From Micromonospora sp. FIMYZ51 (GTDB lineage: Bacteria; Actinomycetota; Actinomycetes; Mycobacteriales; Micromonosporaceae), in contig NZ_CP134706.1 of assembly GCF_038246755.1 (NCBI RefSeq), positions 2,976,001-3,040,000 of the forward strand: 64,000 bases of DNA, in the 5' to 3' direction. The position numbers and the translations under genes are program-made. Each line of letters opens with the position of its first letter. The stretch's first letter is position 1. Of the stretch, positions 3,891 to 54,808 are shown in pieces. The notes under the pieces are model-generated. The model searched no databases. It was not told the origin of the DNA and saw only the letters and a program-made list of their open reading frames with translations.

Positions 3891-3904
3891 TGGGAGCGCT
3901 CCCG
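3891..3904. promoter_or_regulatory. CebR-type (LacI family) operator
   Basis: TGGGAGCGCTCCCG matches 13 of 14 positions of the palindromic TGGGAGCGCTCCCA operator known for CebR-type cello-oligosaccharide-responsive LacI repressors of actinobacteria. It lies 176 bp upstream of the xylanase start and 85 bp upstream of the GH62 start, so one repressor could control both divergent genes. No lacI-type gene is in the window. Confidence 0.75.
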
Positions 3905-3923
3905 TAATATACACGAAGCATCT

Positions 3924-3935
3924 GTTAACGCTAAC
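3924..3935. promoter_or_regulatory. Second palindromic operator-like site in the xylanase/GH62 intergenic region
   Basis: GTTAACGCTAAC has arms GTTA/TAAC around a central ACGC, 10 of 12 positions symmetrical. It is AT-rich in a high-GC surrounding and lies 20 bp from the CebR-type site. The form is that of a LacI-family operator with a different half-site, which would give a second control input, for example from xylo- or arabino-oligosaccharides. The binding protein is unknown. Confidence 0.4.
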
Positions 3936-3988
3936 CTAACAACGACAAGCGTCAATGCTCGATCATCATTCCGCCAGGAGGATGCGTT

Positions 3989-6724: not shown

Positions 6725-6762
6725 TTGACAGGAGCTCCTGACCCGACGGTAGGTTCATGGCG
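6725..6762 (+). promoter_or_regulatory. Promoter and palindromic operator of the hybrid biosynthetic cluster
   Basis: TTGACA (6725-6730) and TAGGTT (6750-6755) are placed like -35 and -10 elements with a 19 bp spacer. A perfect 12 bp palindrome, CAGGAGCTCCTG (6729-6740), overlaps the -35 end and spacer, where a bound repressor would block transcription. The -10 ends 1 bp before ATG 6757 and 7 bp before ATG 6763, so the transcript may be leaderless, beginning at 6763. The element similarity is visible; use in the cell is inferred. Confidence 0.5.
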
Positions 6763-8331
6763 ATGACCTGGATCACCCAGATGCTGGTGCGCAATGCCCA
6801 GCAGTATCCTCAGCGTCCCGCGCTGGTGGCTGGTGATGGCACCCTGACCTACCGCGAACTTGTCCGGCGCGTCGAAGCCACCGCGCACGAGCTGCGGCGA
6901 CGCGGAGTCCTCGACGGCGACATCGTCGCCATCGCACTCCGTCGTGGCACCCGGCAGGTCGTCACCGCCCTCGCGGCGATGTGGCTCCGGGCACCGTTCG
7001 CGATCGTCGACGTCGACGACCCGGCCGACCGGCGACGCGCCCAGATCCGGGCTTCCCGCGCGGCGTTGCTCGTCGTCGAGGCGGACGCGGAGGAGGCGGA
7101 CGTCGAGCAGGACGTACCGACGATGCGGCTGCCGGCCCTGGTCGAGAGCGCGACCGCCGGCCCCGAGCTGGGGTCGCATGCCGATACCGATGCCGCCGTC
7201 TACATCGTATTCACCTCGGGGACCACCGGTGCGCCCAAGGCGGTGGCCGTGCCCTACCGGGCGCTCGACAACTACACCCGGTTCCTCGGCTCGGTACTGG
7301 CCCGGGTCAGGCCGGCGGGTGCCGCGTTGTCGTGTGCCAGCGTGACCAGCTTTGCGACCGATCTCGGTCACACGACGATCTTTCCGGCGCTCGTCGCCGG
7401 CGATGCGGTACACCTGGTGGACAAGCCCACCATGATGGACCCGATCGGGTTCGGAAACTACCTGCGTACGCATTCGATCGACGTGCTCAAGTCGACACCG
7501 TCGCACATCTCGGTGCTCCTGGACGTCGCTGCGGGCGAGGTACTACCCCGCAAACTGATGATCTTCGGTGGCGAGCGACTCTCCTGGCATTTGGTCGACC
7601 AGGTGAAAAAGGTCGGCACCTGCGCGGTGCTCAACCACTATGGACCGTCGGAAACCACGATCGGGGTGTTGACCTATCCGGTCGATCCCTCCCGGACGGA
7701 CCACCGGTCGAGCGCGTACGTGCCGATCGGCAAGCCGATCGACGGAGTCTCGGTGGAGGTCGTGGACGAGCAACTCCGGGCGGTGCGGCCGGGCGAAACC
7801 GGAGAGCTGCTGGTCTGGGGGGAGTGCGTGGCACTGGGCTATCTGGGGTCACGCCACGCGACGAGCGCGCGGTTCGTGTCGCTCCCGCCGGAGCTTCGCC
7901 CACCCGGAGTTGGCGTACCAGCGCCGACCGCCTATCGGACCGGCGACACGGTACGCCGACTGCCCAGTGGCGACATCGAGTTCCTGGGGCGCACTGATCG
8001 CCAGATCAAGCTGCACGGGCAGCGGATCGAGCTCGGCGAGGTGGAGTCCGCGCTGCGCGGTCACCCGGATGTGCGTAATGCCGTCGTCGTCCACCACGAG
8101 GACACCGGACTCAGCGCGTACCTCGTCGTCGCGGATCCGATCAGCCCGCCGGACTCGAAATCGCTGCGGAATTTTCTTCGGAAAACGCTACCCGTGTCGG
8201 CGGTACCGCGCGTTTTCACCGTGCTGGAGAGTTTTCCGTTGACGCTCAGCGGAAAGCTGGACCTGAACAGGCTCGCGTTGGCGGGCGAAGTCACCGACTC
8301 CGCGATATCGGCGCGGCGTGTCGAGGGCTGA
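6757..8331 (+). CDS. Free-standing NRPS adenylation enzyme
   Basis: This 524-residue protein (522 if the leaderless start at ATG 6763 is used) is one complete adenylation domain without a carrier protein. Core motifs in order: A3 YIVFTSGTTGAPK, A5 NHYGPSETT, A7 YRTGD, A8 GRTDRQIKLHGQRIELGEVE and A10 LTLSGKLDL with the catalytic Lys. It should activate a substrate as acyl-AMP and load a carrier protein in trans. The obvious partner is the C-terminal PCP of the megasynthase three genes on, whose own adenylation region is degenerate. In the A4 region the usual FDAS is replaced by FATD (SFATDLGHTTIF), so the Asp that normally grips the alpha-amino group is Ala. The substrate may therefore not be a standard alpha-amino acid. 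First gene of the cluster; the ketosynthase gene follows after 41 bp. Confidence 0.9.
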   Translation: MAMTWITQMLVRNAQQYPQRPALVAGDGTLTYRELVRRVEATAHELRRRGVLDGDIVAIALRRGTRQVVTALAAMWLRAPFAIVDVDDPADRRRAQIRASRAALLVVEADAEEADVEQDVPTMRLPALVESATAGPELGSHADTDAAVYIVFTSGTTGAPKAVAVPYRALDNYTRFLGSVLARVRPAGAALSCASVTSFATDLGHTTIFPALVAGDAVHLVDKPTMMDPIGFGNYLRTHSIDVLKSTPSHISVLLDVAAGEVLPRKLMIFGGERLSWHLVDQVKKVGTCAVLNHYGPSETTIGVLTYPVDPSRTDHRSSAYVPIGKPIDGVSVEVVDEQLRAVRPGETGELLVWGECVALGYLGSRHATSARFVSLPPELRPPGVGVPAPTAYRTGDTVRRLPSGDIEFLGRTDRQIKLHGQRIELGEVESALRGHPDVRNAVVVHHEDTGLSAYLVVADPISPPDSKSLRNFLRKTLPVSAVPRVFTVLESFPLTLSGKLDLNRLALAGEVTDSAISARRVEG

Positions 8332-8372
8332 GGACCACGCCGGGGTCGGCTACCCGGTGACAGCTCGGGGTC

Positions 8373-9581
8373 ATGGTAGAGGGGAAAAGGTTGAACGTGC
8401 ACGTGGTCGGAGCCTCGCTGTTTCTTCCCGGAGGCGTACGCAGCCGGAAAGATCTCGGAGCGGCACTTTTCGACAACGAGGATCAGGCTGGGCGAGTCAG
8501 CGTATTTTCGGACGAGGAGCTGCGGACAGATTTCGCTCGGTTCCGGATCTCGCCCCGTCAGGCCCGCGTCATGGATCCACAGCAGCTGCTGATCCTCGAC
8601 TGTGCCGAACGTGCGTTGGCGGATGCCGGAATCTCGCCGAAGGACCTCGCCGGTAGTCAGACCGGCGTGTTCGTCGGGATGAGCGAATCCGATTTCGTCC
8701 ACACCCTCGACGTGGATCAGATCCCCGATTCCAACCGTTCATATCTTGGTATCGGCAACGCCCGTGGCGCGGCGGCGGGCCGGGTTTCCTACACGTTCGA
8801 CCTGCACGGTCCCAGCTGGCAGGTCGACACGACCTGCTCATCCGGGCTCGTCGCGCTCCGGCACGGCATCACGGCTCTGCTCAGTGATGATGCCGATCTT
8901 TCCCTGGTCATCGCGAGCCACCTGGTGCGGAGCGACTTCGGAAAGCTGATCCGTTCGGCCACGGGGGCGCTGTCGGCATCCGATTCCTGCCGGGCGTTCG
9001 AAGCGGAGGCCGATGGATTCACCCTGGGCGAAGGCGTCGTCGCCGTGGTTCTCGCGCCGGACCGTCCCGGTACGCATTCGCTCGGCCGGGTGCATTGCGC
9101 GGTCAACCACGACGGTCGCACGGCCGGCCTGACCGTCCCCAACCTTCATGCCCAGCGCGACGTCATCGGACGAGCGCTGCGGATGAGTGGGTTGCCCGGC
9201 AGCGACATCGGCTACGTCGAAGCGCATGGCACGGGAACTCCCCTCGGTGATCCCATCGAAGTTGCCGCCCTCGCCGCGGCCTATGGCACCGCCGACCGTG
9301 CCGATCCGCTACTCATCGGCTCCAACAAACCCCAGTTCGGGCATCTTGAGGCGGCCTCGGGTCTGCTGTCGCTGGTGGTCGCGCTCGAGGTTCTCGAACA
9401 GCAACGTCTGCCCGGTACGAAGAGCGGGGGCAAACCCAGCGAGCTGATTCCCTGGGCGGAGCACAACATCCGACCCACGCTCGGCGAGTTCGCCTCTCCG
9501 GACACCATTGCAAACGTCGGAGTCAGCGCTTTCGGCCTATCCGGAACAAATGCTCACGCGATCGTTTCCCGAGTCAGGTGA
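8373..9581 (+). CDS. Free-standing beta-ketoacyl synthase (ketosynthase)
   Basis: This 402-residue protein consists only of a type I PKS-like ketosynthase domain. The catalytic triad is complete: Cys in DTTCSSGLVAL, His in [13 protein letters not shown] and His in FGHLEAASG. It should make a C-C bond between an acyl-enzyme and a carrier-bound malonyl-type unit. No acyltransferase, carrier or linker domain is attached and none is found in cis anywhere in 6757-26937, so the extender must be loaded in trans. The ATG at 8373 has only a weak ribosome site. TTG 8391 or GTG 8400, just after GAGGGGAAAAGG, are possible true starts and would keep the whole domain. The length is short for a KS with flanking linker and consistent with a dissociated enzyme. 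Confidence 0.9.
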   Translation: MVEGKRLNVHVVGASLFLPGGVRSRKDLGAALFDNEDQAGRVSVFSDEELRTDFARFRISPRQARVMDPQQLLILDCAERALADAGISPKDLAGSQTGVFVGMSESDFVHTLDVDQIPDSNRSYLGIGNARGAAAGRVSYTFDLHGPSWQVDTTCSSGLVALRHGITALLSDDADLSLVIASHLVRSDFGKLIRSATGALSASDSCRAFEAEADGFTLGEGVVAVVLAPDRPGTHSLGRVHCAVNHDGRTAGLTVPNLHAQRDVIGRALRMSGLPGSDIGYVEAHGTGTPLGDPIEVAALAAAYGTADRADPLLIGSNKPQFGHLEAASGLLSLVVALEVLEQQRLPGTKSGGKPSELIPWAEHNIRPTLGEFASPDTIANVGVSAFGLSGTNAHAIVSRVR

Positions 9582-9905
9582 ACATGGCGCTGTGAGGTTT
9601 TTCTGGGCCTCGGGCGAGGTTGTCGTGGTGAAGGCAGCGGCATGATCCAGGCTGTATCAGTATCACCTGTGCATTATCGGACATGACTCTCTTCGGCAGT
9701 TCCTCGGCGACGTCTACGGGCTGCGCCAGAAGCGCGAGTGATGCTGCCGTCACCTGTTGCCGAGGCGTTCCGTGGGCCATGGTCAAGTGCTAACGTGAAG
9801 ACCATTCGCTGCGCGGGGGCGGCGGGTGACTTCACCATGTGTGAGCGGCCGAATTGTGCCTTCGGCCGCTCATGCTTCTGCGCGTAGGCGAATGGAGGGG
9901 TTCGA
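9582..9905. other. 324 bp gap between ketosynthase and megasynthase genes
   Basis: I see no convincing gene here. Short open frames on both strands lack a recognisable product or ribosome site. The segment carries the strong hairpin at 9842-9872 and GGAGGGG at 9894-9900, which serves the megasynthase TTG start at 9906. A gap this long is unusual in a cluster whose later genes overlap by 4 bp, so the megasynthase may have its own promoter here. Confidence 0.5.
9842..9872 (+). terminator. Perfect hairpin, terminator or attenuator, before the megasynthase gene
   Basis: A 12 bp perfect stem (TGAGCGGCCGAA at 9842-9853 with its complement at 9861-9872) has a seven-base loop. It ends 33 bp before the megasynthase start. 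It could end the upstream adenylation/ketosynthase transcript or act as an attenuator in a read-through mRNA. It has no U-tract. Confidence 0.6.
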
Positions 9906-12900
9906 TTGCGGGTCGAGGACGCGGTTGCCGGTCTGGTCGAGCGGTTGTTGGAGTTGGACCCGGGGTCGGTTGACCGTGCGGTGCCGTTGTTGGACCTGGG
10001 TGCTGATTCGTTGGTGTTGGTGGAGTTGTCGCGGGAGGTGAAGTCGCGGTTCGGGGTTGACCTTTCGGTCCAGCAGTTGCTGGAGACGGTGGTGACGGTT
10101 CGGGCGGTCGCGCGGTGGATCTCCGAGTTCGGGCCGGGGGGCGAGGCGGTGCAGCCGGTCCGGGTGGATGCGGCGACGCTGGTGCCGCCGCCCGCGTCGG
10201 CCGGCGGCAATGTCGAGGACGCGGTTGCCGGTCTGGTCGAGCGGTTGTTGGAGTTGGACCCGGGGTCGGTTGACCGTGCGGTGCCGTTGTTGGACCTGGG
10301 TGCTGATTCGTTGGTGTTGGTGGAGTTGTCGCGGGAGGTGAAGTCGCGGTTCGGGGTTGACCTTTCGGTCCAGCAGTTGCTGGAGACGGTGGTGACGGTT
10401 CGGGCGGTCGCGCGGTGGATCTCCGAGTTCGGGCCGGGGAGCGAGGCGGTGCAGCCGGCCCGGGTGGACACGACGCCGACCGCGCCGACCAGTGTCGGTA
10501 CCGCCGCGCCGCTGACGCCGGCATCGGCCGTGCCGGCACCGGCCGCGTCGGCGTCGGCCGCATCGGCATTGCCCGTACCGGCATCGGCCGCATCGGCAGC
10601 GACCGCGTCGGCAGCGACCGCATCGGCATTGCCCGTACCGGCATCGGCCGCATCGGCAGCGACCGCATCGGCGGCGGCCGTGCCGGCAGCGGCGATGGCG
10701 TCTGCGGTGACGGCCGCACCTGCGGCGCGGCCGGAGCATCAGCGAGACCCCGGCAAGGACTACGCGACGGCCACCGCCGCCTCGCGCGCCCTCAGCCGGC
10801 GGAGCCAGGAATACCTCTGCAACAACCGGAAGATCGCCCAGCGCGAGCACGAGGAGCGGGCGGCCTCCTATCCGATCTGGATCAGCCGATCGAGCGGTGC
10901 CCACGTGTGGGATGTCGACGGCCGCAAGCTCATCGACCTCACGATGGGATACGGCGCACACCTGCTCGGCCACAATCCGGCCCCGGTACGCGAAGCCGTC
11001 GAGCAGCAGATCGAGCGCGGACTGCACATCGGTGCCGAGGTCACGCAGACCGCGGAGGCGGCGCGGCTGCTCTGCGAACTGACGCAGCTGGACCGGGTGA
11101 ACTTCTGCGTCACCGGTACCGAGGCGGTCTTCACCGCGATCCGGCTGGCCCGCGCCTACACCGGACGCTCGCTCGTCGTCCTGCTTCAGGGGGCCTACCA
11201 CGGGCACTCCGACGCCACCCTCTTCAGCCCACGCCCCGGCAAGCGTCGGGAGCACCTGGCGACCCCGTCGTTTCCCGGCGTGTCCCCGAGCGCCGCCGAA
11301 GACGTCCGGGTCCTGCCCGTGAGTGAGCAGCACCTGACCGATTTCATGGCCGCGCACGGTCACGAGGTCGCCGCCGTGGTGATGGAGCCCCGGCTGAACC
11401 AGTCACCGGACATCGACCTCGGCGCCTTCGCCCGACTGGCGCGCAGCCTCACCGAGCAGGCCGGTGCCCTGCTCGTGTTCGACGAGGTCCTCACCGGGTT
11501 CCGGTTCCACGTCCGGGGCTTCCAAGGGATCTACGGCGTCCGCGCGGATCTCGCCACCTACGGCAAGACGCTCGCTGCGGGCCTGCCGCTGGCCGCGGTG
11601 GCGGGCCGTGCCGAGATCATGGACCTGATCGACGGTGGGCCCTGGACCGACGAGGTACGGGCCGACCCGGACCGGGTGTCGTTCACCGGCGGCACCTACG
11701 CCAAGCATCCACTGTCGATGGCGGCGGCGCGGGCGGTCCTTCAGCAACTCGCCAAGGACGGGGAGACCGTACTCGCCGAACTCAACGCGGCTGGTGACGA
11801 GCTGCGTGCGAAGATCGCGGAGGTCCTGGAGACCTCTGGCGTCGGCGTCCGGGTGCTGGGCACCGGTTCCTTCTTCCGGTTCGTGCCGGCCGGCTCGACG
11901 AGCTTCGCGTACGGCGGCAAGGCGTTCCACGAGTTCCGGCGGATGATGATCGCCGAGGGCGTGCTCGTCCCGGAGACCGGAAACTGCTTCCTGTCGCCCG
12001 CACACACGGCGGAGGTCCGGCAGGCGGTCGTCGAGGCGGTCGTCGGCGCGACCCAGCGGCTGGTCCACGGCGACGACGCGGACGCCCAGCGCGGGCAGCG
12101 GCGGTCGCCGTCGGTGAGTCTGGCCCTGTTCGGCTTCGCGGCCAACGACGAGCACGACATCTACTCCCGCCTGCTCGACCTGGTCGAGCTCGCCGAGGCC
12201 GAAGGTTTGGCGAACGTCTGGCTGCCGGAGCGGCACTTCGACGACTTCGCCGGGTTCTCGCCGAACCCGGCGGTGCTCGGCGCGATGGTCGCGATGCGCA
12301 CCTCCCGGATCGGGATCCGGGCCGGCAGCAGCGTGCTGCCGCTGCACTCGGCGGTCTCCGTGGCGGAGGACTGGGCGATGGTCGACGTTGCCTCCGGCGG
12401 GCGGGTCGCGCTCGGTGTGGCCAGCGGCTGGATGAAGCGCGACTTCGTGCTCTCCGACGCGCCGCACGCCGAACGCCGGGAACTCTTCCGCACGCGGATC
12501 GCCCAACTGGAACGTCTCTGGCGGGGCGAAGCCGTGGCGATCGACGGCAACTCGGGCGAACAGGCGGAGGTCCGGCTGCACCCGCGCCCCCGCAGCGAGC
12601 TTCGACTCTGGCAGGCCTGCGTGGGATCGCCCGACTCGTTCTACGAGGCGGGCCGCGCCGGGCGCGGCGTGCTCACCAACCTGATCCAGCAGGACCTGGC
12701 TCAGCTCACCGCCAACCTGGAACGCTACCGGCAGGGACGACGCGACGGTGGGCTGCCGTCGGACGGCGGAGACGTCACCGTCCTGCTGCACGCCGCGGTG
12801 TCCACCGATGCGGCGGCGGAGGAGCGGAACATGGCGGCGCTGGAGCGCTACATGTTCGCGACCTTCCGCAGCACACACGACAACCCTGAACTCGTCTCCG

Positions 12901-15242: not shown

Positions 15243-15277
15243 GACACGTCAGGTTGCATCGATCGAGGGGTGAAGAG

Positions 15278-16354
15278 ATGGTTCGGGAAGTCAGGACAAC
15301 TGTCGGTACGCTGCGCGAGTTCGCCGCCTGGGTGGAGCCGGACGCCCGGCTCGCCGCCGAGTACGGCTTCGCCGACGGGTTGATCCCCGACAGCGCACCG
15401 GCGATCGTGGACGCCAACCTCGCCGTGTCCACCACGACCGGGCGGGGACCGATCGTCAACGACACGCGGGCGGACTGGGCGCTGTTCTGTCAGGAGCGGC
15501 TCGGACTGGAATCCTCGCTCTGGCCGTCGTTCCGGCGGCATCCGCTCAACGAGGGCTTTCTCTGGCGGTCGATCGGCAGCGGAAAGCGGGTGCTCAGTGA
15601 CGCCGAGGCCGAGGCGTACGACCGCGACGGATACGTGGTCGTCGAGGACGTGCTGAGCAAGGCATTCCTCGCCGACGTGGTCGCCGACCTGGATCGCTTC
15701 GAAGCGGAGCGGGTGCAGGCCGCGAAGAACGCCGGCGGCAAGAACAACATCACCCAGGCCGGCAAGGTGTCGTTCAACGTACAGCTCGCGCGGCACTCGG
15801 CGCCGCTGCGCGAGCTGATCGCGCTGCCGCTGCTGCAACACATGATGTACGACCTGATCGGGCCGAACGTGCGTCTCTACTGGGACCAGTCGGTCTACAA
15901 GAGCCCGAACTCCTGCCTGGCCTTCCCGTGGCACCAGGACACCGGCTACACCTTCGTCGACAAGCCCGGCCAGATCGTCACGGCCTGGATCGCGCTCACC
16001 GACGCGGACGAGGAGTCGGGGTGCATGTGGGTGCTGCCTGGCGGCCACCGGGTGGGGCCGCTGGTGCACGAGAAGGGCGAGTTCGGCAACCGGGTCTTCG
16101 CCGACGACCCGGCCGGGATGATCCCGCTGCCGATGCGGGCCGGGTCCATAGTGGTCTTCGCGGGCCTGCTGCCGCACATGACCGGCGGCAACTTCCGGAA
16201 CTGGACCCGCAAGGCGCTCGTCGTCGAGTACGCCCCGGACGGCATGAACCGGATCGCGATCGACCCGTGGGGCGACAAGGTCGTCAGCCCGGCGAACAAT
16301 CCGCACACGCAGTTCGAGATCCTGCGCGACGGACGTCCGGTGGTTAGTCGATAA
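15278..16354 (+). CDS. Phytanoyl-CoA dioxygenase (PhyH) family, Fe(II)/2-oxoglutarate-dependent hydroxylase
   Basis: This is a 358-residue protein from ATG 15278 (MVREVRTTVG), with AGGGG and GAAGAG just upstream. An in-frame ATG at 15254 exists but has a poorer context. The PhyH-type double-stranded beta-helix carries the iron ligands His and Asp in WHQDTGY and the distal His in LLPHMTGGN. NWTRKALVVEYAP supplies the 2-oxoglutarate-binding Arg. The N-terminal 100 residues are an extra helical part seen in some members. These enzymes hydroxylate an unactivated carbon using oxygen and 2-oxoglutarate, with release of CO2 and succinate. Standing between the megasynthase and the AMP-ligase genes (35 bp and 2 bp gaps), it is likely a tailoring hydroxylase acting on a carrier-bound or released intermediate. 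The exact substrate is unknown. Confidence 0.9.
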   Translation: MVREVRTTVGTLREFAAWVEPDARLAAEYGFADGLIPDSAPAIVDANLAVSTTTGRGPIVNDTRADWALFCQERLGLESSLWPSFRRHPLNEGFLWRSIGSGKRVLSDAEAEAYDRDGYVVVEDVLSKAFLADVVADLDRFEAERVQAAKNAGGKNNITQAGKVSFNVQLARHSAPLRELIALPLLQHMMYDLIGPNVRLYWDQSVYKSPNSCLAFPWHQDTGYTFVDKPGQIVTAWIALTDADEESGCMWVLPGGHRVGPLVHEKGEFGNRVFADDPAGMIPLPMRAGSIVVFAGLLPHMTGGNFRNWTRKALVVEYAPDGMNRIAIDPWGDKVVSPANNPHTQFEILRDGRPVVSR

Positions 16355-16356
16355 AG

Positions 16357-19300: not shown

Positions 19301-19437
19301 TCGACCTGCCGAATTTCGCCCGCGCTGTCGCCGAGCACACCGGCCAGCGGATCGGCGTACTGGAGCTGATGCGCTTTCCGAACCTCGCGGCACTCGCCGA
19401 CCACGTTGACGACCGCCGGAAGGGAAGTGCCGGGTGA
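16357..19437 (+). CDS. AMP-ligase (fatty-acyl-AMP ligase type)-KR-like-ACP protein
   Basis: This 1026-residue protein starts at ATG 2 bp after the dioxygenase stop. Residues about 1-545 are an AMP-forming ligase of the FAAL/PKS starter type, with LMTSGSTGAPK, PAWGMAETCSG, WFRTGDLARI and a late SIGKVRK region. Residues about 710-890 are a ketoreductase-like SDR domain. Its nucleotide motif is LLGGTGRLGEAL and its catalytic Ser/Tyr are in VVSSVNAHVG and GAETYSAACA. The usual Asn four residues after Tyr is Cys, so reductase activity is uncertain. Residues about 945-1015 are an ACP with the pantetheine Ser in MGLTSVDL. It should activate a carboxylic acid, probably the starter, and hold it on its ACP. 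The stop overlaps the start of the KS-ACP gene by 4 bp. Confidence 0.88.
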   Translation: MQNQHRVISELSGQPISTVRGEGTPQSLSGVLDTAAAGTTTVATIDSDGTQREETWRSFRQRVHRIADELRRTGLDRGAVAVVAATEPSELIALFWSSVVAGIEPLLVPAELLDDRAANSDWLTALAQNAPVRALVHARGARVRVVSAAPTCGVQPIPLDLDPTGPGDGAGFLVAADGPQSRIHLMTSGSTGAPKVVTQRHRGIVDMALGAVAVNDLDATTVGFNWMPLSHVGGILMAHVRDAVIAAKHLSVATERILSDPREWFRLVTEHRVSAVWSPNFAYRMLANVAADLPADGTVDLTSIRFCLNGGEAVSAKDCARFEETLGRLGLPKGTIAPAWGMAETCSGVLYAPHYDPLADGSPTVSVGFPLPGVQVRIVAAADVAQDGLGVGHLEVRGSPVLERYLVGGDLASSADGWFRTGDLARIDDTGVHFVGRDGTRIVANGVTWNSADLEAEVEQLDGIVAGTCVVTSYRARSVERDQIAVFCAVDGDAPTVCAEVKRRIETIIGVPVAQVIDIPPGAIERTSIGKVRKAKLVQRFIHPDPPGQWELQWVAAPQQATAGAGTPRRAGKPIVLRGPGLHHSAVAGYPPSYLHEVLEHWRQAAEPDRLRGQDVVIVVEAREADARRMPRSHPVAAFVRAIAHGAGARSVRTVWLHPVVAEHTLDAVLAQELTREAETRSAVADLFIGPRGDRWQRVLSPITVDADVPRVAHVVLLGGTGRLGEALGAELSARGLRVTLVGHRARPDDTPADDNTRVFVDLGSTTAVSDLLADIGWAPAEPTLVVHLAGQPRPAPEEALVRLLAPKTDGVRTAVELAHALDAGLAVVSSVNAHVGGTGAETYSAACAAAEVIAAQATLLPVTVVSVPSVREARQADEAEVAIAQALGLEEVGVMDIAACLLAQPARAVLLGLREDTTILPRRDHLAPSVPPAVAAPPAGHADETGWSPTTTDLAPVLRRFLGAAAVRPDVSWFDMGLTSVDLPNFARAVAEHTGQRIGVLELMRFPNLAALADHVDDRRKGSAG

Positions 19438-21149
19438 GCGGCCGAATCGCGATCGTCGGGTACGACGCACGCCTACCGGCTGGAGCCGAGCGTACGGAGA
19501 TCGACTCGTTCCTGAGGTCGGCGACGAGCGCCGTGGTGGACGTCTCCCGGGCCGAGCTGCTCGCCGCCGGAGTCCCGGAATCCGAGTTCACCCGCGACGG
19601 CTATGTCACGCGCTCGGCGCGGGCCGCGTGGACGCCCGACACCGCACGTCACCTGGCCGGCCTCACCCCGCACGAGATCGCGATCACGGATCCGCAGCAC
19701 CTGCTCTTCCTCGACTGCTGCATCGGCGCGCTGCACGACGCGGGCCTGAGCCCGGAGAGCGTCCGGGGCCGTGAGATCGGTGTGGTCGGTGGCATCGGCA
19801 TGGGTCTGTACGCGGGCCAGGCGCTCGACTCGTACTTCACCACCCGGTTGCAGGGCAACCGCGCGTTGCAGGAGCAGGCCGCCTTCCCGGAGATCCTCGT
19901 CGGCAACAGCAGTGACCACTGCGTCGGCCGGGTCTCCTACCGGCTGGGGCTGGTCGGCCCGAGCGTCAACGTGCAGACCGCGTGTTCCACCGCGCTCGCG
20001 GCGGTGGAACACGCGGTGCTCCTGCTCCGCAGCGGACGAACCGACACCGTGCTCGCCGGTGCCGCCGCGCTGTACTTTCCCGAGCGTCGCGGATACCAGT
20101 GGCAGCGTGGCGGGATCCTCTCGCCGACCGGGGTGTGCCGGGCGTTCGACGCCTGCGCCGACGGCACCGTCGGCGGGAGCGGCGGGGGAGTGTTCGTGCT
20201 CCGGCGCTACGACGACGCCGTCGCCGACGGCAACACGATCCACGGCGTCATCGAGGGGATCTACTCCGCAAGCGATGGTGCGCAGCGGGCCAGTTACGCC
20301 GCGCCCGCCTTCGACGGGCAGGTGCGGGTGATCCGGCGGGCGATTGACGACGCGGGCATCGGGCCGGACGACATCGCGTACGTCGAAGGGCACGGCACCG
20401 GCACGACGGTGGGTGACCTGGTGGAGCTGGGCGCCCTCCACGAGGTGTTCGGCACCCGCCGGGCACCGCTGCCGGTGGGGTCGGTGAAGCCGGCGCTGGG
20501 GCACCTGGACACGGCCGCCGGTATCGCGTCCCTGGTGAACGTGCTCCTCGGCATCAAGCGCGGCTGGATGCCGCCGACGGTGAACTTCGCGGAACTCAAC
20601 GCCGACGCCCGGGAGTGGATCGCCCAACCGTCCGCGCATCCCGTCGCGTTCGAGTCGGCCAGCCCGAGGGTCGGCATCAGCGGATTCGGGGCCAGCGGCA
20701 CGAGCGTGCACCTGGTGATCTCCGGCGAGCGTGCGCCGCAGGGCGGGACCGGCGACGGCCGGGACAGCACCGGCCGGGCACCCTCCGCAGGCACTGTCGG
20801 CGCCGCAGCGCGGCCTGCCCACCCGCCGACCCCGGAGCCGGCGGCGGCCGGGTCCGGCGCTGGCGACACTGGTGGCCCGGGTAACGGGACGGCATCGCGG
20901 CCCGGACGCCAGGAGATCGCCAGCGGGCTGATCGAGGTGGTCCGGCAGCGCGGCGACTTCGCCGACCTCAGCGACGACCAGCTGATGATGGTCGGGCTGC
21001 TCGACTTCGGCATCGACTCGGTCGATCTGGTCGCCGTGGCCAGTGTCATCGACAGGCGGTGGGGAGTGAGCCTGGACCCGCTGGACCTGCTGATGGCGGA
21101 CTCCCTCGACTCGATCGTCGACGAGGTCGAGAGTGGGCTCGTCGAGTGA
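19434..21149 (+). CDS. Ketosynthase-ACP didomain protein
   Basis: This 571-residue protein's GTG start overlaps the previous TGA (GTGA), giving translational coupling to the AMP-ligase protein. Residues about 1-430 are a ketosynthase with Cys in QTACSTALAAVE, His in VEGHGTGTTVGD and His in LGHLDTAAG. A Gly/Pro/Ala linker (about 435-490) leads to a C-terminal ACP (about 495-571) with the pantetheine Ser near 527 in LDFGIDSVDL. There is no acyltransferase, so malonyl-type extenders must be delivered by a separate enzyme. It can take the acid held on the AMP-ligase ACP as substrate and add one two-carbon unit. This is the second KS of the cluster and quite different in sequence from the free-standing KS. 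The stop overlaps the ABC transporter start. Confidence 0.9.
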   Translation: MSGRIAIVGYDARLPAGAERTEIDSFLRSATSAVVDVSRAELLAAGVPESEFTRDGYVTRSARAAWTPDTARHLAGLTPHEIAITDPQHLLFLDCCIGALHDAGLSPESVRGREIGVVGGIGMGLYAGQALDSYFTTRLQGNRALQEQAAFPEILVGNSSDHCVGRVSYRLGLVGPSVNVQTACSTALAAVEHAVLLLRSGRTDTVLAGAAALYFPERRGYQWQRGGILSPTGVCRAFDACADGTVGGSGGGVFVLRRYDDAVADGNTIHGVIEGIYSASDGAQRASYAAPAFDGQVRVIRRAIDDAGIGPDDIAYVEGHGTGTTVGDLVELGALHEVFGTRRAPLPVGSVKPALGHLDTAAGIASLVNVLLGIKRGWMPPTVNFAELNADAREWIAQPSAHPVAFESASPRVGISGFGASGTSVHLVISGERAPQGGTGDGRDSTGRAPSAGTVGAAARPAHPPTPEPAAAGSGAGDTGGPGNGTASRPGRQEIASGLIEVVRQRGDFADLSDDQLMMVGLLDFGIDSVDLVAVASVIDRRWGVSLDPLDLLMADSLDSIVDEVESGLVE

Positions 21150-22918
21150 GTTCCGCTACGGCGTCGGCCACCGCGATCGGCCGACGGCTCCGGTGGAGCC
21201 TCTTCGCCCTGGGGTGGCGACTGCTCCCCGGGTTCACGGTCGGCATCATCCTGCTCCTGCTGGCGACAGCGACGGTGCCGGCCGCGTCGATCGTGGCGAT
21301 CGGTCTCGTCCTGGGCAACGCGGCCAGCGGATCGTCGGTCGTGCTGGCCGGCGCGGTGTTCGTGGTCCTCTTCTTCCTCGACCAGCTCGGCAACGTGGCG
21401 ATCGACGTGCTGGCCGACCGGTACGGGGGTCGCGTCCAGGAGAAGTCGGAGCGCGCCCTGATCCGGGCGCGCCTGGCCGAGCCCGGTGCCACCTCGCCCG
21501 CCCTGCGGGAGGCGCTGGACGCCATCGGCGCCGCACCGCCGCTGCGGCGGCTCGTCGTGTCGACGGTGCGGTACGTGCTGTTACGCGCGCAAGCGGTGAT
21601 ACCCGGTCTGGTGCTCGTGGCCATCGAGCCGCTCGCCGGCGTACCGGTCTTCGTCGCGTTCATCGTGCTCTCGGCGACAATGGAAAAGGACTACGCGGCC
21701 GAGCAGTCGGCGGCGTACTCGGCGGACCAGGACAGCGCCCGCGCCGTGTACCTCGCGGGGCTGGCGTTCCACCGGCGCACCGCCCGCGAGGTGATCCTCT
21801 TCCGCGCGGCCGACTGGGTGATCGGCAGGTTCCGTACGGCCGCGCACGCCGCCCGGCCGGCCACCCGGATCGGGCCGCCGTTGCTTGTGGCGTTGACCTT
21901 CGCGGTGGCCGCGCTGGCGTTCGCGCTGTTCGTGCTGCTGCGGGCCGCGCTGGCGCCGGGCCAGCTGGTGATGGCGGTGGCCGCCCTGGTGGCGCTGATG
22001 CTGATCTTCGGCGTCACCATGGACGTGGTCTACTCCGCGCTTGGGGTCACGGTGTTCGACCGGATTCGCCGCGCCATGACTGCCCCGGCAGGTCCGGTTG
22101 CCGCCGACTCCGGTGCGCCCCGCGCGGCACCGGGCAGCAGGATCCGTTTCGAACGGGTCACCTTCGGCTATCCCGGCGCCGCCGAGCCGGTCTTCACCGA
22201 GCTGAGTTTCGAGGTGGAACTCGGGCGCAGCCTGGCGATCGTCGGAGCGAACGGAGCCGGCAAGTCGACCCTGCTGAAACTGCTCGTCGGGCTGCTCACG
22301 CCGGACGCCGGGCGGATCCTCTGCGACGGCGTCGAGGTGTCCGCCGAGGCGCTGCGGGTCGGCTGGCGCGACTCGTTCGCCTTTCTCGGCCAGCAGTACG
22401 TCCGCTACCCGGCGGGCGCGTACGACAATGTGACGCTGGGCCGCGCGGACAGTGCCGGGATACGCGAACCGCGAGTGCGCGCCCTGCTCGACGACCTCGA
22501 CCCGGAGTTGTTCCAGCCGGACGCGCCACGCCTCACCGGGGCGATGGGCGAGGGAAGCGGTCTCTCCGGCGGACAGTGGCAACGCCTCGCGACGGCACGC
22601 GCGCTCGCGGGGATGGTGGACGACGACCGGCGGGTGCTGGTGCTGGACGAACCGACGGCTGCCCTCGACGCACAGGCCGAGGCGCGGTTCTTCGCCGAAC
22701 TCGGCGAACTCGCCGGCCCGGGCCGCACCACGGTGATGGTGTCGCACCGCTTCGCGGGCGTCCGCCGAGCGGCCGAGATCCTGGTACTGCACGACGGTGT
22801 GATCAGCGAACGCGGCACGCACGAGGCGCTGATGAACGACGACGGCAGGTACGCCCGGATGTTCCGCGCCCAGGCCGACCGCTACCGGACGCCGCGCGAG
22901 GGGAGCATGGCCAGGTGA
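21146..22918 (+). CDS. ABC exporter subunit 1 (fused membrane and ATPase domains)
   Basis: This 590-residue protein's GTG at 21146 overlaps the KS-ACP stop by 4 bp. The frame is open further upstream, but only inside the KS-ACP gene. The N-terminal half has hydrophobic helices (for example GFTVGIILLLLATATV and the later LVALTFAVAALAFALFVLL region) forming the transport channel. The C-terminal ATPase has Walker A GANGAGKST, Q-loop FLGQQY, signature LSGGQ, Walker B RVLVLDEPTAALD and switch His in MVSHRF, all intact. It is one half of a two-gene exporter, paired with the next gene by a 4 bp overlap. Tight coupling to the biosynthetic genes suggests product export and possibly self-resistance. 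Confidence 0.92.
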   Translation: MSSATASATAIGRRLRWSLFALGWRLLPGFTVGIILLLLATATVPAASIVAIGLVLGNAASGSSVVLAGAVFVVLFFLDQLGNVAIDVLADRYGGRVQEKSERALIRARLAEPGATSPALREALDAIGAAPPLRRLVVSTVRYVLLRAQAVIPGLVLVAIEPLAGVPVFVAFIVLSATMEKDYAAEQSAAYSADQDSARAVYLAGLAFHRRTAREVILFRAADWVIGRFRTAAHAARPATRIGPPLLVALTFAVAALAFALFVLLRAALAPGQLVMAVAALVALMLIFGVTMDVVYSALGVTVFDRIRRAMTAPAGPVAADSGAPRAAPGSRIRFERVTFGYPGAAEPVFTELSFEVELGRSLAIVGANGAGKSTLLKLLVGLLTPDAGRILCDGVEVSAEALRVGWRDSFAFLGQQYVRYPAGAYDNVTLGRADSAGIREPRVRALLDDLDPELFQPDAPRLTGAMGEGSGLSGGQWQRLATARALAGMVDDDRRVLVLDEPTAALDAQAEARFFAELGELAGPGRTTVMVSHRFAGVRRAAEILVLHDGVISERGTHEALMNDDGRYARMFRAQADRYRTPREGSMAR

Positions 22919-24705
22919 GCTTCTGGGCCGCTCTGCGCGAGCTGCTACGCCTCTCGTTCCGGGCGGATCGGCGTGCCGCCCGGGTCACCATCCTGGCCTT
23001 CACGGTGCGGCCCATCGCCACCGTCGCCGCGTCCCTGGCGATCGCGATCATGGTGGCACAGTGGATCGCCGGGCAATCCCGGTGGAGCGCGTTCTTCCTC
23101 GGCCTGGCCTGCGTGGCCCTGGTGGCGCAGGTGCTGCTCGGCCGCTGGTCGCTCGCCGTATCGGCGGTGCTGATCGACCGGACGAACCGGCTCATCGACG
23201 AGGACGTGCAGCGCACGCTCTACGACGCCCGGTCCATCGAACACTTCTCGGAGCGCTCGTTCGTCGACGATCTGCACATCGTGCGCGCTGAACAGGCCCG
23301 GCTCACCGAGGGCGCCGACGTGGTCGGTCTCATCCTCGGCACCACCGTGCGGTTGGCCCTCACCGTGGTCATCACGGTGCTGGCCACGCCGTGGCTCCTG
23401 CTCATGCCGCTCGCCGCCGTGGGCGCGTACCTCTGTGTCCGGCGGCGGGACGCCGCAGTCGGGGCGGCCCACCAGGCCGCTGCGGCGCAGGCCCGGGCCA
23501 GCGGTGAACTCGCCAGCATCGGCATGGACGAGAAACACACAGCTGAGCTGCTGCTCTCCCGGGGCAGGACGTTTCTCCTGGACGCGCACCGCGCCGCCGC
23601 CACCGCAGCGGAGGCGACCCGGACAGCCGGCCTGTGGCGCGGCGCCCGATGGACGATGCTCGGGGTCGTGCTGACGAGTGCGGCGCTCGCGGTAGGCGTG
23701 GCGGGACTTGTGCGTGCGCTCGAGGACGGTACCGCCGGCCTGGCCACCACCCTGGCCGCGCTGCTGCTGCTCTCGACCACCACGTCGCTGGTCGGCGCGC
23801 TGGCGCGCTACCTGGCCTCGTGCGCGGATTCGGTCCGCGTGGTCCGTGCCCTCGATCGGGTACGCGGGCGGCTGCGCCGCGACCCGACCGGGCCCCGCCC
23901 GACGGGCGAGATCTCCGCGATCGAGCTGCACGATGTCTCCTACCGCTACCCGGCCGCCGGGACGGCGGCGATCGAGGGGGTCTCCCTCCGGCTCGTCGCG
24001 GGCCGCAGCTACGCCCTGGTCGGCGCGAACGGCAGCGGAAAGACGACACTCGTGAACCTGTTGAGCGGACTCATCGCCCCCTCGGCCGGCCAGATTCGTT
24101 TCCGCAGCGTGGCCCTGGCCGACCAGGACCCGACGCGCGGGCAGTCGCCCGACAGCACGTACATCACCCAGGATTTCGCCGAGTTGGAGTTCGCACTCCG
24201 TGACGCGGTGCGGCTCGGCGACGACCGGTTCACCGACGCCGACGTCGAGCGTGCGGCGCACGACGCGGGGCTCGGACAACTCGTCCGGGACGGTGGCCTC
24301 GGGCTGCCGCTGGGCGGCACCATGCCGAACGGGCGTCGCCTCTCCGGCGGGCAGTGGCAGCGCGTGGCGCTCGCCAGGGGTTTCCTCCGCGCGGACGCCG
24401 GGCTGCTGCTCTTCGACGAGCCGACCGCGGCCATCGACCCGATCGCCGAGGAGCAGCTGCTGGACCGGCTGATGGCCCGGGCCCGCGCCGTCGCGCGGCA
24501 GCGGGCCGGGATCGTCGTCATCGTCACCCACCGGATGTCGCTGGCACCCGCCGCCGACGAGGTGATTATCCTGCACGAGGGTCGGGTGGCCGCGGTGGGC
24601 CCGCACGCACAGCTGCTCGACCTGCCGCGGTACGCCAAGCTGTACCACGCGCAGCGCGACGGCTACCTGGGCGTGGACCAGTCGGGGCCCACGCCGTCGA
24701 GGTGA
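22915..24705 (+). CDS. ABC exporter subunit 2 (fused membrane and ATPase domains)
   Basis: This 596-residue protein starts at GTG 22915, overlapping the preceding TGA. The same frame is open for about 590 codons upstream, but that part only shadows the first ABC gene. The membrane half includes PIATVAASLAIAIMV and LALTVVITVLATPWLLLMP. The ATPase has Walker A GANGSGKTT, Q-loop YITQDF, signature LSGGQ, Walker B LLLFDEPTAAID and switch His in IVTHRM. Both subunits carry complete ATP sites, so this is probably a heterodimer with two active sites, unlike exporters with one decayed site. It is the last gene of the plus-strand run. The gene meets the opposing condensation gene after 25 bp with no obvious hairpin. 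Confidence 0.92.
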   Translation: MSFWAALRELLRLSFRADRRAARVTILAFTVRPIATVAASLAIAIMVAQWIAGQSRWSAFFLGLACVALVAQVLLGRWSLAVSAVLIDRTNRLIDEDVQRTLYDARSIEHFSERSFVDDLHIVRAEQARLTEGADVVGLILGTTVRLALTVVITVLATPWLLLMPLAAVGAYLCVRRRDAAVGAAHQAAAAQARASGELASIGMDEKHTAELLLSRGRTFLLDAHRAAATAAEATRTAGLWRGARWTMLGVVLTSAALAVGVAGLVRALEDGTAGLATTLAALLLLSTTTSLVGALARYLASCADSVRVVRALDRVRGRLRRDPTGPRPTGEISAIELHDVSYRYPAAGTAAIEGVSLRLVAGRSYALVGANGSGKTTLVNLLSGLIAPSAGQIRFRSVALADQDPTRGQSPDSTYITQDFAELEFALRDAVRLGDDRFTDADVERAAHDAGLGQLVRDGGLGLPLGGTMPNGRRLSGGQWQRVALARGFLRADAGLLLFDEPTAAIDPIAEEQLLDRLMARARAVARQRAGIVVIVTHRMSLAPAADEVIILHEGRVAAVGPHAQLLDLPRYAKLYHAQRDGYLGVDQSGPTPSR

Positions 24706-24730
24706 GCGCCGTGGCTGGTCTCCTGCCGGC

Positions 24731-26077
24731 TCATCGGGCACCGGCGTCGGCGTCGCGGTGCTCGGTCGCACCGTTGTCGGTGAGTTCGCCGACGGCGTCC
24801 CGCCACAGGTTCAGCAGTCGGTCGAGGTCGCCTGCGGCGAAGGTGCCTGCCGCGCCGAGCAGGAACCCCTTCGTGTCGGGTCCCGACTCGGTGACGTGCA
24901 CCAGCAACTCGGCGGCGGCCTGCGGATACTCGAGTTCCACCGACTCCACGTCGACTCCGTCGAGCGCCCAGCCGAGATCGACGTCCTCGCGGGCGTACGC
25001 GAACGCGACCTGGTAGAGCGGATTGCGGCAGGGAGCCCCCGTGCGTCTCGCGGCGGCGTGCGAGACCAGGGACGCGATGGGGTAGTCCCGCCGCCAGAGC
25101 GAGTCACGCACGACCGACCGGCACTCCTCAAGGGTCCGCTCCAGTCCTGCCGAGCGGGGCGAACGCGAGCGGAGGAGGACGAGGTTCTGGAAGAAGCCGA
25201 CGGTGTCGAAGTCCGCCGGCCGCAGCCGGGTGTCCACGGCCGTGACGATGCCGATGTCGTCGGTCCCGGAGAACTGCTTCAGCGCCCAGATCAGGGCGGT
25301 GACGTGGATGATGAAGCGGGTGCAGCGCAACCGGCGGGCGGTGTCGGCCATCCGGCCGTGGATCTCGGCACCGAGCATGCGGGTGGCCACCACCGGCCGG
25401 AACGCCGCCGGATCGGCCTGCGGGTCGGGGCTGGTGAGAAACCTCGGCGGCAGCGGCGTGAGGAGATCGAGGATCTCCGGCGTCTCGTCGATGCTCGCAA
25501 ACGTGTTCCGCACGGCGGACGGATCGTAGGGCTGCGGCTCGGCCAGTTCCGCCGACCGCCCGGCGTAGAGCTGAGTCAGTTCCCGCTGGAGGATCGCCTT
25601 CGAACGCTCGTCGAGCGCGATGTGATCGATGATCAGGAGGAGGCTGTGCACGCCCGGCGCGTGCGGGATCAGGATCGCCTGGAGCATCGAGTGGCGATCC
25701 GGCGAGGTGAACCGCCCGACCGCCTCGTGCAGCGCGGTGTTCACGTGCTTGCGAATGTCCTGCTCGTCGGACATCCCGGTCTGCGCCGCGATCGTGAACA
25801 CCCCCGGACCCTCGTCCTGGTGGACGATCGCAAGCACCTCGCCGTCCTCGGAGAATGCGTAGTTGGTACGGAGGATGGTGTGCCGACGGGTGAGTTCGAC
25901 AAGCGCGTCGCGAAGCCGTTCGACGTCCAGCGGCCCGCGGATCAGCAGGTGCGTGCCGACGATCTGGGCGGGTACGCCGCCCGGCGCGTGCCGCATCATG
26001 ATCAATCGGCGCTGGGTCGACGAAGCCTGGTACACGGTCGCGCGCGACGGTACGCCCCGATCGAGCTGGTTCCCCAT
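24731..26077 (-). CDS. Free-standing condensation-domain protein
   Basis: This 448-residue protein starts at the ATG at 26077 (MGNQLDRG), preceded by AAGGGGCGGAAACAGG. The frame is open to 26176, but the extra residues are Arg-rich and unlike a protein start. It is a single NRPS condensation-type domain with N-terminal YQASSTQRRLIMM, then LTRRHTILRTNY, the active-site segment IIDHIALDERS, and C-terminal DTRLRPADFDTVGFFQN. The HHxxxDG motif is altered: the first His is Asp and the final Gly is Glu, while the catalytic second His and the Asp are kept. Free-standing C domains form amide or ester bonds, often releasing or joining chains in trans. With no TE in the cluster, this protein is a candidate for the release or final coupling step. 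Confidence 0.85.
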   Translation of the reverse strand: MGNQLDRGVPSRATVYQASSTQRRLIMMRHAPGGVPAQIVGTHLLIRGPLDVERLRDALVELTRRHTILRTNYAFSEDGEVLAIVHQDEGPGVFTIAAQTGMSDEQDIRKHVNTALHEAVGRFTSPDRHSMLQAILIPHAPGVHSLLLIIDHIALDERSKAILQRELTQLYAGRSAELAEPQPYDPSAVRNTFASIDETPEILDLLTPLPPRFLTSPDPQADPAAFRPVVATRMLGAEIHGRMADTARRLRCTRFIIHVTALIWALKQFSGTDDIGIVTAVDTRLRPADFDTVGFFQNLVLLRSRSPRSAGLERTLEECRSVVRDSLWRRDYPIASLVSHAAARRTGAPCRNPLYQVAFAYAREDVDLGWALDGVDVESVELEYPQAAAELLVHVTESGPDTKGFLLGAAGTFAAGDLDRLLNLWRDAVGELTDNGATEHRDADAGAR

Positions 26078-26241
26078 CCCTGTTTCCGCCCCTTCTGCCG
26101 CGCCCACACGGCTGTCCGCTCGGCGCGCCCGGCACAGTCGAATGTGTACCGATCGCGACCGCGAGCGTACCCGCAAGGGGCTGCGCAGTCAGCTGCCCGA
26201 GCCGCAGGCCAGCAGCGGGTGGACCGCACCCGGAGTTCGGC

Positions 26242-26937
26242 CTACACGAGCAGGCCACCGGTGGCGCGGATGTTCTGGCCGGTGACCCAGCCCGCGTCCG
26301 GGCCGACCAGCCAGGCCACGACCGCGGCGATGTCCTCGGGCCTGCCGAGCCGTTGCAGGGCGGTAAGCGCGGTGGTCTGGGCGAGCGCCTCAGGCGGGTT
26401 GGTCGACCGGAGCATGTCGGTGTCGACCGCTCCCGGCGAGACGGTGTTGACGGTGATGCCGCGCGGTCCGAGCTCGCGGGCGGCCACGGCGGTGGCCTGC
26501 TCCAGGGCGCCCTTGCTCAGGACGTAGAGCAGGTGCCCGGCCGCCGGTACGACCGTGTTGAGCGTCGACAGGTTGACGATCCGCCCACCCGGACCCATCC
26601 GCTCGGCGGCGGCGCGCATCGCCAGCAGCGGCACCTTCGTGTTCACCGTCAACACCCGGTCGAACTCCGCTGCGGTGAGCGTCTCCAGCGGGGTGCCCGG
26701 GTTGATCGCGGCGTTGTTGACCAGGATGTCGAGGCGGTCGCCGACGGCGGCGAACATCGCCTCGACACTGCCGATGTCCTGGTGGTCGGTGCGGATGCCG
26801 ACTGCACCGATCGCCGGTGGCTGCGTCCGGCAGGTGAAGTACACCTCGGCACCCGCTCGGACCAACCGTGCCACGATCGCCCGGCCGATACCGCGGGAGC
26901 CGCCAGTGACCAGGGCGATTTTTCCGTCGAGTGTCAT
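26242..26937 (-). CDS. Short-chain dehydrogenase/reductase (FabG-like)
   Basis: This 231-residue classical SDR has cofactor motif TGGSRGIGRAI (about residues 11-21), NNAA at ILVNNAAINPG, catalytic Ser in VNLSTLNTV and the Tyr/Lys pair in YVLSKGALEQA. The C-terminal GRPEDIAAVVAWLVG block is typical of FabG-like enzymes. It would reduce a keto group or oxidise an alcohol with NAD(P)H/NAD(P). It could act as the beta-ketoreductase for this dissociated pathway, whose only other KR domain looks impaired. It lies between the condensation gene (164 bp away) and the membrane protein gene (65 bp), on the same strand as both. Whether it belongs to the hybrid cluster or to general metabolism is unsettled. 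Confidence 0.88.
   Translation of the reverse strand: MTLDGKIALVTGGSRGIGRAIVARLVRAGAEVYFTCRTQPPAIGAVGIRTDHQDIGSVEAMFAAVGDRLDILVNNAAINPGTPLETLTAAEFDRVLTVNTKVPLLAMRAAAERMGPGGRIVNLSTLNTVVPAAGHLLYVLSKGALEQATAVAARELGPRGITVNTVSPGAVDTDMLRSTNPPEALAQTTALTALQRLGRPEDIAAVVAWLVGPDAGWVTGQNIRATGGLLV

Positions 26938-39220: not shown

Positions 39221-54808
<15,588 letters not shown>

Follow-up and report, generated by a model that had tools for sequence, protein, structure and literature searches.

The closest described relatives of the locus examined here are assembly lines that build 3-amino-2-hydroxyacyl units. In the cyanobacterial Athmu-type pathways (floridanemamide, pahayokolide-like, and portoamide-like), the accessible part of a 2026 preprint (PMC13252402) describes loading of an alpha-keto acid by adenylation (A) and ketoreductase (KR) domains, extension by a ketosynthase (KS), and then an aminotransferase and oxygenase (AM-OX) step. 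In puwainaphycin synthesis, the same 3-amino-2-hydroxy acyl pattern is assigned to an aminotransferase (AMT) and oxygenase pair in the available sections of the published account (PMC4219810). Here we describe a locus from Micromonospora sp. FIMYZ51, lying in a 64,000-nucleotide stretch of contig NZ_CP134706.1 (positions 2,976,001 to 3,040,000 of the forward strand; hereafter the window, whose numbering is used unless stated otherwise). Nine genes at 6757–26077 appear to encode a dispersed polyketide synthase (PKS) and nonribosomal peptide synthetase (NRPS) line without an acyltransferase (AT), which would make a 3-amino-2-hydroxyacyl chain joined to an aspartate-like amino acid, a proposal to which we give an even chance of being right. 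Our best reading by analogy is that the line is an actinobacterial counterpart of the Athmu and puwainaphycin pathways, with the same 3-amino-2-hydroxy-acyl logic in dispersed form.

As far as the open portion of the Athmu report describes them, those pathways share with this locus an A-KR-acyl carrier protein (ACP) loading unit, KS extension, an aminotransferase plus monooxygenase step giving a 3-amino-2-hydroxy unit, and a condensation (C) domain thereafter. The locus described here differs in having no AT, in being split over separate proteins, in an A domain supplied in trans, in one NRPS step against about eleven, in an added PhyH-family oxygenase, and in having no thioesterase among its nine genes. 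The Athmu extension modules are of the KS-AT kind and lead into a long cis-acting NRPS, whereas the KSs here are AT-less and lead to a single module of a C domain and a peptidyl carrier protein (PCP). No isopropylmalate gene stands among the annotated genes of window 1–39134, which were not searched for it by name, and this too separates the locus from the Athmu-type pathways as described. The puwainaphycin and iturin lines, in the parts of their accounts that are available, start with a fatty acyl-AMP ligase and contain ATs and cis A domains, whereas the loading A domain here is nearest to McyG and StsA among solved structures. The PuwE and MycA modules (PMC4219810; PDB 6ket, 6kfu, 6kfm) provide the nearest solved relatives of the oxygenase and AMT domains, and PuwE, as far as this source describes it, has the same AMT-oxygenase-C order. 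The preliminary description of the locus had named no matching pathway, and we likewise found no characterised cluster with the same gene set in open-access literature. The enzyme kinds and their logic are therefore known; what we have not found described in open-access text is their combination in an actinobacterium, with no AT, dispersed genes, a trans A domain, a lone C domain, PhyH, and a single NRPS step.

At the centre of the locus is a 1778-residue megasynthase (9906–15242; features are on the plus strand unless noted) with the order ACP-ACP-AMT-luciferase-like monooxygenase (LLM)-C-spacer-PCP, recognised from Pfam, TIGR04020, and its structural relatives MycA and PuwE. The AMT domain (10866–11987) is a class III (GSA-type) aminotransferase (Pfam Aminotran_3, 3.8e-50) whose nearest solved structure is that of the mycosubtilin synthase MycA (2e-78). 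The oxygenase domain (12144–13022) scores 283 bits against a cut-off of 244 for TIGR04020 (2.5e-84), which places it in the MupA/Atu3671 family of flavin mononucleotide-dependent LLMs, and its nearest solved structure is PuwE (1.5e-57). The AMT is predicted to convert a beta-keto to a beta-amino group and the LLM to hydroxylate the alpha position. Adjacent aminotransferase and flavin monooxygenase domains thus stand ahead of a C domain, as in the Athmu-type AM-OX pathway. The C domain itself (13221–14370, end estimated) matches Pfam Condensation at 4e-4, under the gathering score; H1228, D1232, and G1233 are invariant in 14 of 14 proteins, so that the catalytic second His of HHxxxDG is kept in an SHxxxDG motif. 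Between it and the C-terminal PCP (15033–15227; Pfam PP-binding) lies a conserved spacer of about 200 residues (14418–15020), at the usual place of an A domain. No A-domain match to the spacer was found in Pfam, and bridging relatives were negative as well; the idea that it is an A-domain remnant was unsupported, with hhalign aligning 61 columns to the A profile at a probability of 2%. Elsewhere in the genome, a second match to the oxygenase part (genome 4615551–4616609, minus strand; 40% identical) occurs within an open frame of 2148 residues.

The two N-terminal ACPs (9912–10487) form a 300-nt tandem repeat whose copies (9912–10187 and 10212–10487) are 96% identical over 276 nt at the DNA level. 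Eight of the 14 proteins, this one included, have two or three motif-matched ACP copies and were compared; the six with fewer than two, a shortfall due partly to start-codon calls, were omitted. Copies within one protein are 91–99% alike, whereas the ACPs of the seven other proteins are 51–85% identical to those of the protein studied here. Because identity within a protein exceeds identity to this protein, the pattern indicates that the ACP copies have been repeatedly homogenised within each protein.

The two genes preceding the megasynthase encode a stand-alone NRPS A domain (6757–8331; Pfam AMP-binding 4.4e-62) and a stand-alone KS (8373–9581; Pfam 4e-49), and an uncharacterised locus in Mycobacterium attenuatum (L003) suggests how they would fit the line. 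This locus encodes a 2764-residue AT-less protein with the order KS-ACP-AMT-LLM-C-A-PCP, followed by PhyH, an open reading frame without Pfam match, and an A-KR-ACP protein. It differs from the Micromonospora cluster in carrying the KS and A domains in cis, in having one KS only, and in the extra Pfam-less frame, and no relative of the exporters or of the lone C domain was found within the 22.8 kb read. The ten-residue code of the lone A domain, DLTKMFHIGK, is identical in G031 and reads DLTKMFHVGK in G317, the two other genomes with an orthologous cluster (the genome under study being G000). The cis A domain of M. attenuatum has the code DLSKLFHVGK, which matches that of the lone A domain at six of the nine first positions, with an overall domain identity of about 31%. 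The background of other A domains, drawn from AMT-containing relatives and hence non-random, comprised 80 of 88; of these, 76 match at no more than three positions, one at four, one at five, and two at six (DLTKLLHVGK, P0070 and P0071). The near match in code to an A domain that M. attenuatum carries within its megasynthase suggests that the lone A domain belongs to the line, and we propose that it charges the PCP of the Micromonospora megasynthase in trans.

The phylogeny of 23 selected KS rows gives a comparable picture, in that the lone KS forms a group (99/96) with KSs from two AMT-LLM proteins that lack an AT, one of M. attenuatum and one of a Streptomyces. The KS of the KS-ACP protein (19434–21149; assigned by Pfam) is placed in the opposite half of the tree, alongside most KSs of AT-keeping AMT modules. 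The tree thus ties the lone KS to AT-less modules and not to AMT modules generally, and we propose that it is the KS of the AMT-LLM module. The Cys-His-His residues are kept in both KSs, with the lone KS motifs present in four of four sequences and the KS motifs plus ACP serine of the KS-ACP protein in five of five; the A10 lysine is kept in both A domains, and the carrier serine in the A-KR-ACP protein. At the M. attenuatum locus, the Pfam-less frame (L003 17220–18494) lies between PhyH and A-KR-ACP, a position at which one might look for a release or ligase step. The locus as a whole lies downstream of two adjacent proteasome-subunit genes, which we take to be the usual prcB-prcA pair.

The A-KR-ACP protein (16357–19437), of the StsA/McyG kind by PDB matches, would start the chain, and its substrate is likely an alpha-keto acid. 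StsA is the A-KR-thiolation (T) module for alpha-ketoisocaproate. Val232 of the loading A domain aligns with StsA Ile306 at the D235 site, and Met342 with StsA Met415, and the accessible part of a review ties both positions to alpha-keto acids. With StsA and the cereulide-type CesA modules (PMC11253843, PMC4455996), as the open text of these sources presents them, the protein shares the A-KR-T order, a hydrophobic residue for D235, and Met for a conserved Pro; it differs in that its product would pass to a KS for extension and not to ester-forming NRPS modules, and in that the catalytic Asn of its KR has become Cys.

Several observations weigh against the line as we propose it. In the megasynthase C domain, the first His of HHxxxDG is lost. 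The branch of the lone KS is long, and the AT-keeping AMT-LLM modules P0018, P0019, and P0024 fall away from this KS, in the KS-ACP half of the tree. DLTKMFHIGK resembles the aspartate code, and the Asp-like assignment is presumptive. In the more distant Streptantibioticus lineage (see below), the A domain fused to the lone-C orthologue has, by eye, a visibly different pocket, and the genome yielded no close lone-A orthologue (41 matches, at most 39% identity), the region preceding the megasynthase lying beyond the contig end. For the loading A domain, NCBIfam ranks long-chain acyl-CoA/acyl-ACP ligases first (3e-53, 8e-47), then a fatty acyl-AMP ligase subfamily (5e-40) and amino acid adenylation (5e-27), all below cut-off. 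McyG, its best structural match (5e-61, against 3e-51 for StsA and 8e-21 for the fatty acyl-AMP ligase FadD23), shares both diagnostic residues (Val227 and Met) and is described as an activator of Phe or hydrophobic substrates. The KR keeps the GGTGRLG nucleotide motif, Ser, and Tyr, and has the Asn-to-Cys change (Y-x-x-x-C) in four of four readable sequences (G000, G031, G317, and L002), whereas the M. attenuatum KR keeps Asn. The L001 A-KR-ACP protein was read out of frame in the motif table and is excluded from these counts; an intact match was seen in the contig scan.

These last points make possible, at a clearly lower probability than an even chance, a version of the same line with a different starter. 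Here the loading A domain would take a hydrophobic, aryl, or fatty acid, the KR would be silent or act in trans on the beta-keto intermediate, and the product would carry a plain 3-amino-2-hydroxyacyl (bestatin- or microginin-like) unit without an additional alpha-hydroxy group. The rank of McyG as best single PDB match, pocket residues that are by eye at least as McyG-like as StsA-like, the NCBIfam order, and the altered KR all favour such a starter, but StsA and CesA, both alpha-keto-acid modules, have this same A-KR-ACP order, and the M. attenuatum locus retains A-KR-ACP with its Asn included. The preliminary description had called the protein an AMP-ligase, which agrees with the sub-threshold NCBIfam ranking and disagrees with the nearest solved structures; a fatty acyl-AMP ligase was set aside on the PDB matches, though NCBIfam points the opposite way.

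Returning to the line with an alpha-keto starter, we asked how widely its genes are kept together. Eight of them (A, KS, megasynthase, PhyH, A-KR-ACP, KS-ACP, and the two ABC exporter genes) occur in uninterrupted order in all three genomes in which both flanks could be read, and in G031 and G317 synteny begins on the left with the lone A gene. The lone C gene comes directly next in two of the three; in the third, G031, other genes intervene and put it 18.5 kb farther along. The nine proteins are 72–88% identical to the window proteins in G031 and 65–81% in G317, and such conservation of gene content and order in two further genomes, at 65–88% protein identity, suggests more than chance. Two loci limited by contig ends agree with this gene order. 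That of Actinokineospora pegani runs from the megasynthase through C, and that of Streptantibioticus silvisoli runs from the megasynthase through the second exporter gene, with a thioesterase gene inserted between KS-ACP and the first.

The megasynthase has 13 non-self relatives spanning 97–100% of the searched region among the best 120 of 155 matches, after which the bit score drops from 1105 to 503. Eight are 75–83% identical and come from Micromonospora, Saccharomonospora, Saccharothrix, and Actinokineospora; the other five are 46–48% identical, and four of these bear Streptomyces or Streptantibioticus names. The close form was found in two of 160 Micromonospora genomes (G000 and G031), with 16 more passing E 1e-60 as distant relatives only. 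The megasynthase was matched in three of 397 evenly drawn genomes of the order (E 1e-120), and in one of 394 genomes of the Streptantibioticus family, namely the Streptantibioticus genome itself (E 1e-75). The megasynthase is rare in whole genomes at these thresholds. In a scan of genome contigs with the megasynthase alignment, the best 80 of 559 relatives included two loci of the same family (L001 and L002); G341, probably the same species as L001, was not counted separately. Most others among these 80 match the aminotransferase part only, and L003, L004, L007, and L008, together with further loci that match a KS or A domain, were treated as distant relatives. A megablast of 6757–26937 against a plasmid collection returned a single record with a 43-base match. 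Other Streptomyces AMT-LLM-C proteins (P0016, P0017, P0021, and that of locus L004) also have no A domain in their Pfam lists, the P0016 cluster comprising 167 member sequences.

The lack of an AT, noted in the preliminary description, was confirmed by a genome-wide search with PF00698. The genome (7,046,848 bases, one contig) has 58 matches, and none between genome positions 2966294 and 3016883, which leaves window 1–40882 free of them. The nearest upstream AT, in a modular PKS gene, ends 9.7 kb before the window start and about 16 kb before the cluster, and the nearest downstream AT, also in a modular PKS gene, starts at window 40883, about 15 kb past it. G031 and G317 have no PF00698 match in the 80 kb and 60 kb read around the cluster, respectively, and 51 and 43 matches elsewhere. 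Trans-AT PKSs resemble the cluster in having KSs without a cis AT, outside loading being a prediction for the KSs here, and differ in encoding a discrete AT, which is absent from inside the clusters of G000, G031, and G317. At L004, an AT-less KS-ACP-AMT-LLM-C arrangement adjoins KS-AT-KR-ACP. A FabD-type frame lies at genome 5494378–5495370 beside FabH- and FabF-like frames (roles judged by eye), which means that a malonyl transferase would be available in trans, and we infer that FabD supplies the cluster with malonyl groups. FabD has been proposed to supply a KS and ACP without AT in a Streptomyces cluster, as described in the open part of that study (PMC13336041).

Whether the AT-less genes are the decayed leftovers of a normal PKS/NRPS that has lost its AT and A domains can be weighed against the same data. 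The missing AT, the C-PCP module without A domain, and the changed catalytic residues in C and KR fit such a remnant, as does the M. attenuatum KS-to-ACP interval, which reads by eye as a linker with no AT. We consider this explanation very improbable, since the frames are long and intact, the copies that could be read retain their catalytic motifs, three genomes share one gene order, and the lone A domain has a matching code.

The surroundings bear on a further explanation, in which a beta-amino acyl starter made by the cluster would prime the adjacent modular type I PKS (from window 39221 on), much as beta-amino acids start certain macrolactams. A thioesterase gene, genes of the nucleoside diphosphate (NDP)-sugar type, a LuxR-family regulator, an EryCIII-like glycosyltransferase, and the type I PKS follow 3–13 kb downstream, a PKS lies about 15 kb upstream, and the first PKS gene read begins with a docking domain and not with a loading module. 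We nevertheless consider starter supply improbable, in view of the same nine genes in G031 and G317 without an AT in the 60–80 kb read, the cluster's own exporters, its ending in PCP and C domains rather than a transfer step, and the glycosidase genes that separate it from PKS genes on both sides in G000. The preliminary description had allowed that an AT and further modules just outside might make the genes part of a standard line; AT-bearing type I PKS modules do flank both sides, but because the set recurs in two other genomes without an AT nearby, the cluster does not look like a piece of one. On present sequence evidence, the nine genes are an independent, self-contained biosynthetic unit of about 19 kb.

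The right-hand end of this unit was probably drawn too far in the preliminary description. All ten genes that it named are there, each in a long open frame that matches a profile significantly, and within its span of 6757–26937 the nine genes at 6757–26077 stand as a set. The tenth encodes a short-chain dehydrogenase/reductase (SDR; 26242–26937, minus strand; profile match), which adjoins the lone C gene in only one of the three genomes with both flanks readable; in G317, an SDR 33% identical lies about 9 kb further along. The cluster proper probably ends at the lone C gene (24731–26077, minus strand, frame open to 26176; Pfam Condensation 8.5e-23), leaving the SDR outside. The lone C domain reads DHxxxDE in three of three sequences, and a role in release or in the last condensation is proposed. 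In Streptantibioticus, a single 962-residue protein carries an A domain followed by the orthologue of the lone C domain; this fusion links an A domain with the lone C domain, and the differing A domains suggest that the amino acid differs between lineages of the wider family.

The remaining enzyme of the set is the PhyH-family Fe(II)/2-oxoglutarate oxygenase (15278–16354, alternative TTG start at 15254; Pfam PhyH 1.1e-30), in which HxD...H and Arg are kept in six of six sequences. Hydroxy-Asp and alpha-hydroxy-carboxylates are usual ligands of siderophores, and the co-occurrence of an Asp-like A code with a 2-oxoglutarate oxygenase could accordingly mean that a PhyH-hydroxylated Asp-like residue and the alpha-hydroxy group together chelate a metal. 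Such a metallophore is again improbable in our view, given that no uptake, reductase, or metal-regulator gene is found among the nine conserved genes (the flanks in G031 and G317 being without profile annotation). Export would be left to two ATP-binding cassette (ABC) half-transporters, at about 21146–22918 (Pfam ABC_tran 7.5e-23) and 22915–24705 (4.2e-21), both also assigned by synteny.

Taken together, the findings lead us to infer how the 3-amino-2-hydroxyacyl line would run, from its substrates and the sequence of reactions to malonyl supply by FabD, release, and the product. The A-KR-ACP protein would start the chain by activating a carboxylic acid; if this is an alpha-keto acid, as seems most likely, the KR would reduce it to an alpha-hydroxyacyl-ACP. 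One malonyl unit would be added by the KS-ACP protein and a second by the lone KS on the tandem megasynthase ACPs, with housekeeping FabD loading malonyl groups onto the ACPs, since no AT is encoded in the cluster. On the tandem ACPs, the AMT would then form the beta-amine and the oxygenase would hydroxylate C2, giving the 3-amino-2-hydroxyacyl chain. The lone A domain would load an Asp-like amino acid onto the C-terminal PCP, the internal C domain would form the amide, and PhyH would hydroxylate a carrier-bound or free intermediate. The last step, either release of the product or condensation with a final partner, probably falls to the lone C domain (DHxxxDE), and export would fall to the pair of half-transporters. 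A small aminated and hydroxylated acyl-amino acid made mostly by trans-acting enzymes had been expected earlier, and the MycA-like AMT, the PuwE-like oxygenase, the lone-A code match, and the lone-KS grouping all argue for it, the product itself being a prediction.

Beyond the cluster, window 29351–64000 holds a second, separate biosynthetic region with thioesterase, nucleotidyltransferase, NDP-sugar-type dehydratase, LuxR-family regulator, major facilitator superfamily, EryCIII-like glycosyltransferase, and type I PKS genes, and another PKS ends about 10 kb upstream of the window start. Glycoside hydrolase genes stand on both cluster flanks (window 2000–5401 and 28165–29268; GH30-like and GH62, both with CBM2, and GH53). 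In the neighbouring type I PKS, one AT is split at 41099–41260, with an in-frame stop at 41236 after an out-of-frame stretch, and another at 56600–57200, with stops around 56720–57200; several other AT matches in the genome are broken mid-profile. The splits look like genuine decay or else like sequence errors where the DNA is GC-rich and repetitive. Four minus-strand Rfam matches to ASpks (antisense to mycobacterial pks) in the PKS region (40274–40348, 51116–51184, 55914–55988, and 61039–61107) probably reflect coding-sequence similarity.

Bestatin, amastatin, and microginin are aminopeptidase inhibitors with a 3-amino-2-hydroxyacyl N-terminus on an amino acid, and the predicted product would share this feature, a likeness that is a chemical analogy only. 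No bestatin or amastatin cluster was found in open-access literature. More speculatively, we hypothesize that the cluster represents an AT-less, FabD-fed, fully dispersed actinobacterial family, first seen here, that makes free polyhydroxylated 3-amino-2-hydroxyacyl-Asp pseudo-dipeptides acting as bestatin/amastatin-like inhibitors of metallo-aminopeptidases with an acidic P1' residue, and in which a swappable A domain (lone, in cis, or fused to a releasing C domain) sets the amino acid in each lineage. If the proposed pathway is true, 3-amino-2-hydroxy acids, which form a drug-relevant warhead of protease inhibitors, would become accessible through a compact, expressible cluster of about 19 kb. 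The natural series from KS and A fused in M. attenuatum, through A and C fused in Streptantibioticus, to all of these split in G000, G031, and G317, would then show an assembly line disassembled into trans-acting pieces and yet kept together across genera.

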